A stretch of DNA of 64,000 bases. Source: a beta proteobacterium MWH-UniP1. GTDB taxonomy: Bacteria; Pseudomonadota; Gammaproteobacteria; Burkholderiales; Burkholderiaceae_A. The notes under the pieces were generated by a model. The model was not told the DNA's origin. It was given only the letters and a program-made list of their open reading frames with translations, and did not search any database. Within the stretch, counting starts at the first letter, position 1; each line of letters starts with the position of its first letter. This document shows, one piece after another, positions 49,703 through 54,800 of this stretch. The position numbers and the translations under genes are program-made. The stretch is from positions 1,737,401 to 1,801,400 of the forward strand of contig CP143625.1 in assembly GCA_036362785.1 (NCBI GenBank). Reading direction: 5' to 3'.

Positions 49703-50383
49703 ATGAGCACGATTCCCGCACGCCCAACGGCGCGCCCCCCCTGGGCAGACCGCTTCCGATCCATTGTGATCGAGGGGCCAATTGGCGTGGGCAAGAGCAG
49801 CCTGGCCATTAAATTTTCTGAGCGATTCGGCTACGCGCCTCTGCTCGAGACCCCTGCCGAGAATCCGTTTTTAGCGAAGTTTTATCGCGACAGCAGCCGC
49901 TACGCACTGGCCACCCAATTGTTTTTTCTGTTTCAGCGGGTCGACCAGCTGCGCGACATTACCCAGCGAGATCTGTTTGCCGAGCATGTGGTGAGCGACT
50001 TCATGATGGAAAAAGACCAGCTTTTCGCGGGTCTGACCCTATCCGATGAGGAACTCGCGCTCTATCGAAAAATATACGAAGTGCAGCAGCCGCAGGCCCC
50101 ACAGCCCGATCTGGTGATTGTGCTGCAGGCCACGGCCGACGCCCTGATTGACCGAATTCGTCAACGTGGCATTGCCATGGAGCAGAACATGTCAGAAGAC
50201 TACCTGCGCCACTTGGCCGACGCCTATACCAATTTCTTTCATCACTACGATGCGGCGCCTGTGTTGATCGTGAACACCGAGCAGCTCAACCCCATTGATC
50301 GGGAAGAAGACTTTCAAGCCCTGGTACAACAGATTGCCAATTTCAAGGGGCGCCGCAGTTACTTCAACGCCCTGCATAACTAA
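49703..50383 (+). CDS. Deoxynucleoside kinase (dAdo/dGuo kinase family)
   Basis: A 226-residue P-loop kinase: VIEGPIGVGKSSLA, ETPAENPFLAKFY, QLFFLFQRVDQL, RDLFAEHVVSDFMMEKDQLFA (ERS-like region) and RIRQRGIAMEQNMSEDYLRHL (lid). The start is ATG 49703; an upstream in-frame start would overlap folK. Salvages deoxynucleosides. The kinase between folK and panC is a common Burkholderiales arrangement. Confidence 0.88.
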   Translation: MSTIPARPTARPPWADRFRSIVIEGPIGVGKSSLAIKFSERFGYAPLLETPAENPFLAKFYRDSSRYALATQLFFLFQRVDQLRDITQRDLFAEHVVSDFMMEKDQLFAGLTLSDEELALYRKIYEVQQPQAPQPDLVIVLQATADALIDRIRQRGIAMEQNMSEDYLRHLADAYTNFFHHYDAAPVLIVNTEQLNPIDREEDFQALVQQIANFKGRRSYFNALHN

Positions 50384-51256
<873 letters not shown>

Positions 51257-51304
51257 AACAAGGGATCCTTGAGGTCTAAATTTCTGAATCAGAAGGTGCC
51301 AATG

Positions 51305-51337
51305 AAAAAAGCCTGCGACGAACATCGCAGGCTTTTT
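51305..51337. terminator. Bidirectional terminator between panC and terC operons
   Basis: AAAAAA followed by GCCTGCGA (51311-51318), loop CGAACA, TCGCAGGC (51325-51332) and TTTTT. The perfect 8-bp G+C-rich stem with A-run on one side and T-run on the other works on both strands, ending panC on plus and terC plus the microprotein on minus. Confidence 0.9.
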
Positions 51338-51381
51338 AATTTATGCAATTTCAGTTCGGAAATCGCATGACCCGAATCAAC

Positions 51382-51474
51382 TTATCGGATCACGAGTGCC
51401 ACCACTAGGGCGATCAAAAATATGATCGCCATGGTTTTTAAAATGGTACGGTTGTTTTTCTCGGGTGGGTTCAT
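51382..51474 (-). CDS. 30-residue membrane microprotein coupled to terC
   Basis: A 31-codon frame. Its ATG (51472-51474) overlaps the terC stop as ATGA, so it should be translated by the same ribosomes. The product begins MNPPEKNNRTILKT and ends MAIIFLIALVVALVIR: a short polar, positively charged N terminus and one transmembrane helix ending in Arg, then TAA. A bidirectional terminator follows about 45 bp downstream, so the frame lies wholly inside the transcript. I do not know a family name. Coding is inferred from the coupling and the coherent helix, not from homology. Confidence 0.6.
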   Translation of the reverse strand: MNPPEKNNRTILKTMAIIFLIALVVALVIR

Positions 51475-52160
51475 GCGGCCGTCCTTTGCTGCTGACGCCA
51501 GGTCAGCAGCTTACCAACAGCAATGACGAACACCACGCCAATCCACGCCAGGGTGTGGGTGGGGATACTCACAGTGGTCGTCCAGAGGTCTTTCAAGCCC
51601 GGGTCGTTTTGAATCATTTCACCGGCCAGGTAGCCCAATAAACCACCGCCCAGAACCACAATCCAAGAGAAGCGATTCATCAAGGACAAGACAATCTTCG
51701 ATCCCCAAACGACCAGGGGGATCGAGAGCGCCAGACCAAAGACCAACAGGAACATGCTGCCCTTGGCCGCACCGGCCACGGCAATCACGTTGTCCAGCGA
51801 CATAGCAAAGTCGGCAATCACGATGGTTTTGATTGCCGCCAAGAGCTTGTCTTTGCCCTCGATCTCGTGGCCGTCGTCTTCGGCCTGCGGCATGACGAGT
51901 TTCACGCCGATCCAGACCAATAAGAGCCCACCAAATGTTTTGAGATAAGGAATTTCAAGGAGTTGCACCGCGAACGCCGTGAGGACCACCCGCAAAAGAA
52001 TCGCGGCGGTGACCCCCCAGAAAATGCCCAATCGGCGCTGCTTGGCGGGCAGGTTACGGCAGGCCAACGCAATCACGATGGCGTTATCGCCTGAGAGCAG
52101 CAAGTCGATCCAGACGATCTGCAGCAAGGCGATCCAAAACGCGGTGCTTCCGAAATCCAT
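51471..52160 (-). CDS. TerC-family integral membrane protein
   Basis: A 229-residue TerC/Alx family protein with seven or more helices and the conserved acidic helices LLSGDNAIVIALACRNLP and DFAMSLDNVIAVAGAA. These are thought to export manganese or help metal loading in exported proteins. The loop MPQAEDDGHEIEGKDK between the two halves is cytoplasmic. The gene ends in an ATGA overlap with a 30-residue membrane microprotein. Confidence 0.9.
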   Translation of the reverse strand: MDFGSTAFWIALLQIVWIDLLLSGDNAIVIALACRNLPAKQRRLGIFWGVTAAILLRVVLTAFAVQLLEIPYLKTFGGLLLVWIGVKLVMPQAEDDGHEIEGKDKLLAAIKTIVIADFAMSLDNVIAVAGAAKGSMFLLVFGLALSIPLVVWGSKIVLSLMNRFSWIVVLGGGLLGYLAGEMIQNDPGLKDLWTTTVSIPTHTLAWIGVVFVIAVGKLLTWRQQQRTAA

Positions 52161-52251
52161 TCGTGTTTCCTTAAAAAATTAGGGGGACAGTTTGATCTGA
52201 AACGGCTTTCACCGACTTCGGATGCTGCCCCCCACTATTATGCCGTTGGCA

Positions 52252-53133
52252 TTACATGACTGACTTGAGTAATTTCCCCATCTCCGAGGGGTTCTTGGTG
52301 GTCTTGATGCCACAGGCTTCCATGATTTCCAGTTTCGCTTGTGCCGTATCAGCACCACCAGAAATCAATGCACCGGCGTGGCCCATGCGTTTGCCCGGGG
52401 GAGCGGTCACACCCGCGATAAAGCCAACGATGGGCTTTTTCATATGGTCTTTGGCCCACATCGCAGCGTTGACTTCATCGGGGCCGCCGATTTCGCCAAT
52501 CATGATGACGGCATCGGTCTCGGGGTCGTCGTTAAAGAGTTTCAAGACATCGATGTGCTTTAGACCGTTGATCGGATCCCCGCCAATACCAACAGCAGAA
52601 GACTGACCCAGGCCCATCTCGGTGACCTGCCCAACGGCTTCGTAAGTCAACGTGCCAGAACGCGACACGATGCCGATACGGCCCTTGCGGTGGATGTGGC
52701 CCGGCATGATGCCGATCTTGATTTCTTCGGGTGTGATCAGGCCGGGGCAGTTTGGCCCGAGCAAGAGCGTGCGCTTATTGGCCGCTTTCATCTTGTTGCG
52801 CACGACCATCATGTCGCGCACAGGGATGCCCTCGGTAATACAAATGACCAAGTCCAGGTCTGCCTCTACGGCTTCCCAGATGGCATCAGCTGCGCCTGCG
52901 GGCGGCACATAAATGACAGAAACCGTGGCGCCCGTTGCACTCTTGGCATCTTTGACTGATGCGTAGATGGGAATGCCCTCGAAGTCTTCGCCTGCTTTTT
53001 TGGGGTTCACGCCAGCAACAAAACAGTTCTTGCCGTTGGCATAGTCACGGCACATGCGGGTGTGAAACTGGCCGGTCTTACCGGTGATGCCCTGGGTGAT
53101 GACCTTGGTATCTTTATTGATCAGAATTGACAT
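52252..53133 (-). CDS. sucD: Succinyl-CoA synthetase alpha subunit
   Basis: A 293-residue SucD: SILINKDTKVITQGITGKTGQFH, YVPPAGAADAIWEAVEADLDLVICITEGIPV, GPNCPGLITP and the phospho-His loop RMGHAGALISGG. With SucC it converts succinyl-CoA to succinate with substrate-level phosphorylation in the TCA cycle. Lies 14 bp after sucC. A small TGCC/GGCA hairpin follows the stop. Confidence 0.97.
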   Translation of the reverse strand: MSILINKDTKVITQGITGKTGQFHTRMCRDYANGKNCFVAGVNPKKAGEDFEGIPIYASVKDAKSATGATVSVIYVPPAGAADAIWEAVEADLDLVICITEGIPVRDMMVVRNKMKAANKRTLLLGPNCPGLITPEEIKIGIMPGHIHRKGRIGIVSRSGTLTYEAVGQVTEMGLGQSSAVGIGGDPINGLKHIDVLKLFNDDPETDAVIMIGEIGGPDEVNAAMWAKDHMKKPIVGFIAGVTAPPGKRMGHAGALISGGADTAQAKLEIMEACGIKTTKNPSEMGKLLKSVM

Positions 53134-53147
53134 GTGGTTCTCCGGCC

Positions 53148-54314
53148 TTAGGCTTTTTTCGCGGCATCAACAACTTTTTTCGCTGCATCTGCCATGGTGT
53201 CCGCGGTGATAATCGGCAGGCCCGAATCCGCAAGAATCTGTTTACCTTGATCTTCATTGGTACCCTTCATGCGCACCACCAGAGGAACCTTCAGGCCAAC
53301 CGCACGCGATGCGGCGACCACGCCCTCGGCAATGACATCACAACGCATGATGCCGCCAAAGATGTTGACCAGAATGGCCTTCACATTGGGGTTGCCCAGC
53401 ATGATCTTGAAGGCTTCGGTCACTTTTTCAGTAGTGGCACCACCGCCGACATCCAAGAAGTTGGCTGGTTCACCGCCAAACAATTTGATGGTGTCCATCG
53501 TGGCCATGGCCAGACCAGCGCCATTGACTAAGCAGCCGATGTTGCCATCGAGCTGGATATAGGCCAGATCGAATTTCGATGCTTCGATCTCGGCGGGATC
53601 TTCCTCGTCAAGGTCACGCATTTCGGTGATCTCGGGGTGACGATAGAGCGCGTTGGAATCAAAGTTCCACTTGGCATCCAGGGCGATCACTTTACCGTCG
53701 CCAGTCAAAATAAGAGGGTTGATCTCGGCCAGTGATGCGTCGGTATCCCAGAAGGCCTGATACAGACCCTGCAAGACTTTGCGGGCCTGGGGCACGGATG
53801 CAGCGGGAACGCCAATCTTGTTCGCCAACTCATCGGCCTGGGCATCCGTCAAACCAGTTGCGGGGTCAACGAATACTTTGTGGATTTTTTCAGGGTGGGT
53901 TGCGGCGACTTCTTCAATGTCCATACCGCCTTCGCTTGAGCCCATGACGCAGACGCGTTGTGTGACTCGGTCGGTCACAACAGCAACATAGAGTTCTTTT
54001 TTGATGTCAGCGCCGTCTTCAATCAGCAAACGACGGACTTTTTGTCCGGCGGGACCGGTCTGATGGGTGACCAGCTGCATGCCGAGGATGCTGGATGCAT
54101 AGGTTTTTACATCGGCCATGGATTTCGCCACCTTCACGCCACCGCCTTTGCCGCGACCACCGGCATGAATCTGAGCCTTGACGACCCAGACCGGACCGCC
54201 CAGCTTTTCAGCTGCAGCGAGTGCTTCGTCAACAGAAAAACAGGCAATGCCGTTGGGTACGGGAACCCCGTAGCGGCGCAGAATTTCTTTGCCCTGATAC
54301 TCGTGTATTTTCAT
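53148..54314 (-). CDS. sucC: Succinyl-CoA synthetase beta subunit
   Basis: A 388-residue ATP-grasp subunit: [63 protein letters not shown] and [15 protein letters not shown]. Standard length. A GGGGG stretch lies 8 bases before the ATG. Followed at once by sucD. The pair sits beside recX and recA rather than with sucAB, usual in Burkholderiales. Confidence 0.97.
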
Positions 54315-54395
54315 TTTTTAGCCCCCTGAATAACCGGTCCAGTTTATCACGCGAAGCCAGGCCAGCCGGGTGCCGGGGCGGCCCCCTGGGCTTTA

Positions 54396-54800
54396 CTAAC
54401 GGCCCTGCAGCTCGCGCATTAGCCTGCCAATGGCAGCGCTGGAAAAGCCCCGCTGCATGAGAAAACGTTGCTGTCGGAGAGCCTCTTGCGCACTGGTTGG
54501 CGCAAGACCAAATTTCTTCTCCCAGACTTGTTTAAGACGATCGGCCTCTGTGTCTTGCAGCTGATGCAAGACCGATTCCAAAACGGCGTCGGAGACACCC
54601 TTTTGCTGCAATTCGTAGCGCACTTTTGCGGCGCCGAACCGGGACCCCCGAACACGGGCGACCGACTCAGCAAACCGGCGATCAGACAGGAGATTTTCGG
54701 ACTGAAGTTGATCTAAAACCGCAGCAAGTTGATCAGGCCCCTGCGCGAGCGGTGCCAGTTTGCGCTCAAGTTCCTGGCGGGAGTACTCCCTGCGAGCCAA
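54396..54800 (-). CDS. recX: Regulatory protein RecX, start codon uncertain
   Basis: A RecX of about 134 residues or slightly more: ARREYSRQELERKLAPL, NLLSDRRFAESVARVRGSRFGAAKVRYELQQKGV, QRFLMQRGFSSAAIGRLM. It binds RecA filaments and limits their activity. Homology seems to begin before the TTG at 54798-54800 (SLRARAIAALARREYS), but the frame from there to the stop near 54865 holds no ATG, GTG or TTG, only CTG codons. So either TTG is used and the first helix is shortened, or a CTG start is used. Directly downstream of recA. Confidence 0.88.
   Translation of the reverse strand: MARREYSRQELERKLAPLAQGPDQLAAVLDQLQSENLLSDRRFAESVARVRGSRFGAAKVRYELQQKGVSDAVLESVLHQLQDTEADRLKQVWEKKFGLAPTSAQEALRQQRFLMQRGFSSAAIGRLMRELQGR

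Follow-up and report, generated by a model that had tools for sequence, protein, structure and literature searches.

A conserved single-helix microprotein gene at the sucCD locus of a Burkholderiales family and its possible role in a membrane complex

Small membrane proteins such as CydX and KdpF are encoded in operons with larger proteins, and their helices pack against partners in their complexes. Both are named as small membrane proteins, together with CcoQ and CcoS, in a published article (PMC10903887). Here we describe a gene of comparable size in a 64,000-nt stretch from MWH-UniP1 (hereafter the window), whose genome, G000, is one contig of 2,049,113 bases. G000 is one of 26 genomes that we compared from a single Burkholderiales family, labeled f1, within which g3 is a genus; compared genomes and loci carry G and L numbers, respectively. 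The product, which we call the microprotein, may easily be missed by gene finders and is conserved across this one family of aquatic Burkholderiales.

The microprotein gene (51382..51474, minus strand) consists of 30 codons and a stop and encodes MNPPEKNNRTILKTMAIIFLIALVVALVIR. Its ATG (51474-51472) and the TGA of terC (51473-51471) share the tetranucleotide ATGA (51471..51474, minus strand), which can be read directly in the sequence, and its own stop, TAA, lies at 51384-51382. An AAAGGA resembling a Shine-Dalgarno sequence (51482..51487, minus strand) lies 7 nt 5' of the ATG, within the 3' end of terC; among the 24 sequences upstream of microprotein copies such motifs are not clear in all, and examples are AAAGGAGG in G012 and AAAGGAG in G007. 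The genes further upstream, all on the minus strand, are terC itself (51471..52160, 229 aa, Pfam PF03741 at E 3.2e-48), sucD for the alpha subunit of succinyl-CoA ligase (52252..53133, 293 aa, CoA_binding at E 4.1e-24 and Ligase_CoA at E 5.1e-23) and sucC for its beta subunit (53148..54314, 388 aa, ATP-grasp_2 at E 6.6e-79 and Ligase_CoA at E 1.6e-34). The convergent neighbor is panC, encoding pantoate-beta-alanine ligase (50396..51256, plus strand, PF02569 at E 4.3e-97).

On the 3' side of the microprotein gene, reading of the sequence and folding identified a hairpin terminator with a U-run (51305..51338, minus strand); for the 91-nt stretch that contains it, the folding energy is -33.2 kcal/mol (z -4.8). 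It is not among the terminators listed by a simple scan, probably because the A/T pairs flanking the U-run were counted as stem. The U-run is present on both strands, which would suit the two convergent operons. A preliminary description of this DNA had given the 30-codon frame, its coordinates, the overlap with terC and the terminator that follows, all of them exactly. We also observed an inverted repeat of eight pairs with a T-run at 51409-51430, inside the microprotein gene, which scores as a plus-strand terminator and has the orientation for transcription arriving from panC. An Rfam search of 50000-54500 gave three matches, all below gathering scores, of which two lie on the terminator hairpin and one within panC.

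In the window, such an arrangement is rare. Among 60 mechanically called ORFs of at least 100 aa, a single one is followed, within -10 to +60 nt, by an ORF of 18-45 aa with a 15-residue stretch above 2.5 on the Kyte-Doolittle scale, and this one is terC with the microprotein. A homologue of 22-39 residues is found in 24 of the 25 f1 genomes with a readable sucD locus, the window copy included; G025 (75% complete), where the sucD match is absent, was left out of this count. Seven distinct genomes carry a frame of 29-34 residues with the same helix downstream of terC. A profile built from these seven copies (A1) was searched against whole genomes and recovered nine further f1 copies (E 7e-12 to 0.004) and two more at E 0.011 and 0.017, both at the same locus; since A1 holds terC-linked copies alone, the nine are not circular evidence. 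Another six copies, directly 3' of sucD, come from g3 (32 residues in G020 and 22-24 in the others). Weak A1 matches at other loci were discarded for G014 and G008, as was a second match in G010; the genuine copies of the first two genomes lie after sucD. We found no second confident copy in any f1 genome. The single loss among readable loci is G019, where sucD runs into panC.

An alignment of the 24 copies (A2) separates a polar N-terminal tail, residues 1-11 in the window copy, from a core of the form L12-x-x-M15-(14 residues)-R30. L12 and R30 are present in all 24 copies and M15 in 23, and no indel interrupts the stretch from L12 to R30 in any of them, whereas the part before L12 varies from 2 to 18 residues. 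In six of the eight g3 copies the tail is reduced to 2-3 residues; thus it is the helix, not the tail, that is kept. Purifying selection was estimated by pN/pS for 20 of the 24 copies, placed in five groups of related genomes and aligned without gaps from the conserved arginine: 36 of the 37 within-group pairs have pN below pS. The pairs are not independent, and in several of them synonymous sites are saturated; the one exception, G008/G018, depends on a single synonymous change. Differences summed over the same kind of non-independent pairs amount to 356, 161 and 561 at codon positions 1, 2 and 3. By profile search, alignment and pN/pS, the microprotein is therefore conserved and selected as a protein.

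These results answer the two questions that the preliminary description had left to comparison, namely whether frame and helix recur after terC orthologues and whether substitution rates speak for a protein. Frame and helix are kept in seven genomes, so that a complete lack of conservation after terC in related genomes, which would have counted against the gene, is not what is seen, and the pN/pS values agree. We consider it almost certain that 51382-51474 is a genuine gene, and, as far as sequence comparison can tell, its conservation in related genomes takes away the remaining doubt on the reality of the frame.

The gene order around the 24 copies points away from terC and toward sucD. The gene directly upstream is sucD in 17 cases and terC in seven (terC1, the terC between sucD and the microprotein). 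In four genomes a second terC lies directly downstream, and G002 has terC on both sides; in all, terC is found on either side of 10 copies and is not adjacent to the other 14, so the microprotein does not occur only or mainly with terC. In every case the microprotein begins between -4 and +57 nt from the stop of the preceding same-strand gene. A 4-nt overlap with the preceding gene is seen in seven of the 24, two with terC and five with sucD, and one overlapping copy starts with GTG. On the other side, the next of four genes sought is a convergent panC in 18 genomes, a same-strand panC in two and the second terC in four. The microprotein keeps the strand of sucD where panC has flipped (G007, G011) or where the second terC intervenes (four genomes), and thus its strand relation to sucD is constant and that to panC is not.

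The preliminary description had proposed that the helix, translationally coupled to terC, regulates or stabilizes the TerC metal transporter. This would agree with the ATGA overlap in the window and in G001, with the position after terC1 in seven genomes, and with a position 12 nt before the second terC in G003, G004 and G006 and between the two in G002. As a shared feature, however, the ATGA coupling fails, being present in two of the seven terC-linked copies with gaps of 5-57 nt in the others. A Pfam search found no TerC-family gene in six of the 24 carriers (G009, G015, G017, G008, G012 and G018); since G009 is 97% complete and the other five 70-87%, some of these absences may be gaps. G019 presents the opposite case, having kept TerC genes elsewhere and lost the microprotein. 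Outside f1 the frame was not seen just 3' of terC: no such frame starts within -40 to +80 nt of the stop at more distant terC loci (39-61% identical). Within f1, two further terC genes at other loci (L008, L016) are not followed by one either. What stands of the earlier proposal is a real, selected, single-helix gene; the partnership with TerC as a general role is largely refuted, and we consider it very unlikely.

A tree of sucD and panC from 25 genomes, unrooted and with long branches in g3, requires four changes for terC1 at this locus and one for the microprotein, and at least two of the four are forced by well supported branches. In some genomes outside f1 (for example, L065, L126, L137 and L152) terC also follows sucD, and it may thus be an older neighbor that was later lost, although the tree cannot tell gain from loss. 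On these arrangements, the microprotein is likely to be a member of the sucCD operon and not a companion of terC. The local operon can mislead in this respect: next to the window copy stands terC, whereas the neighbor that stays constant is sucD, a gene of the TCA cycle.

Some side observations may be recorded here. G000 has a second, distant TerC-family gene within a longer open frame (G000:C1:866822-867430). In G002 (L079 / L032, VERJ01000040.1), the microprotein is flanked by a tandem of distinct terC genes, one 87% and the other 47% identical to that of the window, and in G003, G004 and G006 only the second terC is kept at the locus. Locus L036 (CAMAZF010000002.1) has the f1 gene order and is titled Bordetella parapertussis, a title that looks wrong.

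Outside f1 we found no homologue after sucD in 42 genomes from 36 other Burkholderiales families. This screen covered ORFs of 18-70 aa starting at most 1300 nt after the sucD stop; in it, the six g3 copies that its profile lacked reached E values between 1e-7 and 0.05, against 1.2 or more for all ORFs from outside f1. A profile of all 24 members, searched across the order (399 genomes), found f1 in 12 of the 13 genomes sampled at E 8.8e-8 or better, all of them members of the profile, and 29 matches outside f1 at E 6.8e-4 to 0.05. Of the latter, 18 sit in open frames of at least 100 aa, and one is what we take to be a HemY-like N terminus. Another order-wide profile search gave matches outside f1 only at E 2.5e-4 and above, and at 28 loci from both searches none of the matches outside f1 has sucC, sucD, terC or panC beside it. 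A copy may exist elsewhere in other families that is too short for detection.

Two further observations concern the surroundings of sucD. A hydrophobic ORF of 20 aa after sucD in G029, from another family, was rejected, being a terminator hairpin read as protein that is not kept in five other genomes of its genus; similar short hydrophobic ORFs lie near sucD in L144 and L162. Six g3 genomes (L168, L169, L171, L174, L175, L176) have a second sucD-like gene, about 50% identical, and no microprotein was seen after it, with L168 and L176 ending at or near the gene end. The frame after it in L169, L171, L174 and L175 presumably encodes a relative of malyl-CoA lyase, and this neighbor suggests that the second sucD-like gene is a malate-CoA ligase.

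AlphaFold2, run on an alignment of 16 rows (A3, the window copy and 15 others), predicts a single helix spanning residues 6-29 with a mean pLDDT of 83.9. Together with lengths of 22-39 aa in the 24 copies and the helix kept in the homologues, this agrees with a protein of fewer than 50 residues with one transmembrane helix, and with the polar N terminus and single helix noted initially. Insertion in the membrane is suggested by hydrophobicity; with a hydrophobic core of no more than about 16 residues and charged residues at both ends, the topology is uncertain. No convincing match was found for the 24 members in Pfam (unrelated models only, with at most four members each and a best E of 0.0076) or NCBIfam (at most two members per model, best E 0.0044), and PDB sequences gave nothing below E 1.3. 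A literature search returned, among the matches listed, no paper on such a protein with sucD, succinyl-CoA synthetase, CydX or TerC.

Small size and a single helix are also what is expected of type I toxin peptides, and a peptide of this kind would damage the membrane. Toxin loci of this sort fit poorly with what we observed, namely no second confident copy in any f1 genome, near-universal retention at one housekeeping locus, a co-directional and tightly packed position behind sucD, and nothing above the Rfam gathering score at 50000-54500. We regard a toxin-like function as extremely improbable.

A possible origin is suggested by the same chromosomal position in other Burkholderiales, where the microprotein could be the shortened and repurposed N-terminal helix of a type IV pilin gene once present at the locus. 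Four of 128 loci scanned, in three genomes that all lie outside f1, have a pilin-like frame here: it follows sucD-terC in G055 (L026/L126) and Candidatus Glomeribacter (L065), and sucD in G028 (L123). The 22-residue core of the microprotein aligns in one register with pilin N-terminal helices in all 18 cores tested, with z of 1.1 to 3.0 against shuffles of the hydrophobic part of the core, the cores not being independent (of the 24 copies, five from g3 are too short and one contains an X). Of 100 matched hydrophobic windows, a small and uniform control set, no more than 4% reach such a score. In a separate comparison, however, the five short g3 copies fall near or below the control mean, four of them allowing only one register, and almost all the other scanned loci are without a pilin. 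The type IV pilin motif has a glycine and a glutamate, and both are absent from the microprotein. Its place gave no match to PF07963 (N_methyl) at E 1 or below in the 26 f1 genomes, and this model is equally absent from the Pfam scan of the 24 members. The likeness thus lies in a pilin-like gene at the same place in three genomes and in a similar hydrophobic register; unlike a pilin, the microprotein has neither a PF07963 match nor a globular part, and its core ends in an invariant arginine. Descent from a pilin, judged from sequence, is only suggestive, a speculative idea that we hold to be very doubtful.

We tentatively favor the view that the microprotein is a one-helix accessory subunit of a membrane complex, encoded in the sucCD operon, although this explanation as a whole falls somewhat short of probable. 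It would be the last cistron of a co-transcribed sucC-sucD(-terC) operon in f1 and would be translated from there. The product most likely inserts in the inner membrane with its N terminus inside, as positive charges precede the helix; an invariant arginine at the far end of the helix makes this orientation uncertain. There it may act through its helix, whose L..M..R pattern would pack against an integral membrane partner as in CydX or KdpF, as a small accessory or stabilizing subunit of an integral membrane complex that is needed while succinyl-CoA synthetase is made. The accessory role of the helix, taken by itself, is plausible to about the same tentative degree. With only 2-3 residues before L12 in most g3 copies, a tail-tether gripping soluble SucCD is argued against.

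Expression together with SucCD would suggest a role in succinate metabolism or in respiration. Succinate dehydrogenase uses the product of SucCD, and it would be the first candidate partner; this particular choice is a guess, and an unlikely one. The idea that a protein made with succinyl-CoA synthetase, as an added one-helix subunit in these small-genome aquatic bacteria, links the production of succinate to the membrane enzyme that oxidizes it, and that it is possibly pilin-born, is likewise improbable. Since SucCD itself is soluble, a connection to a partner in the membrane is inferred. For mitochondria, a Krebs metabolon possibly including complex II has been proposed (PMC10238741), and nothing here shows a bacterial equivalent.

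The tight, mostly sucD-adjacent gene order of the 24 copies and its independence from terC speak for a sucCD-linked accessory subunit, while G019, which lives without the microprotein, speaks against it. The neighborhood itself has to be read with care. The sucC-sucD-panC(-kinase) block is conserved across f1, and the position of the microprotein may therefore reflect vertical inheritance and not function. In that case it could be a small membrane protein in its own right that has nothing to do with SucCD or TerC and serves, for example, in membrane stress or as a transporter or oxidase subunit. Synteny alone is weak evidence in such a conserved block, and the microprotein persists where terC stands between it and sucD, as might be expected of a position that is inherited and not functional. 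On the other hand, the gene overlaps the sucD stop in five genomes and in none of the 24 starts more than 57 nt from its upstream neighbor, which speaks for expression together with sucCD(terC). We consider a free-standing function rather unlikely, and return to the accessory subunit as the favored role. Should the helix serve succinate dehydrogenase or a different complex of respiration, the junction of the TCA cycle and respiration would gain a component.

Comparison showed in this case that a short frame that might be taken for noise is a gene, and it is kept in small genomes, down to 22 residues. Its homologues form a defined and testable set, one of them in a cultured coastal isolate, LSUCC0115, which falls in the MWH-UniPo clade (PMC6952679).

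Among described families, the SGM_5486 family transporter-associated protein (NF040912) resembles the microprotein through a weak match in two of the 24 members (best E 0.0044), and differs in that the other 22, that of the window included, have no match at E 1 or below; we attribute the weak score to short hydrophobic helices, which readily give such scores. Closer in kind are CydX, KdpF, CcoQ and CcoS. Sequence similarity to them was not found in Pfam, NCBIfam or PDB, and the enzyme encoded with the microprotein is a soluble one of the TCA cycle, in some genomes joined by terC. In size and in its one hydrophobic helix the microprotein is like them, and like CydX and KdpF it is encoded with larger proteins in what is probably one operon. 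We regard it as a new family within a known class, that of small one-helix membrane proteins encoded in operons.
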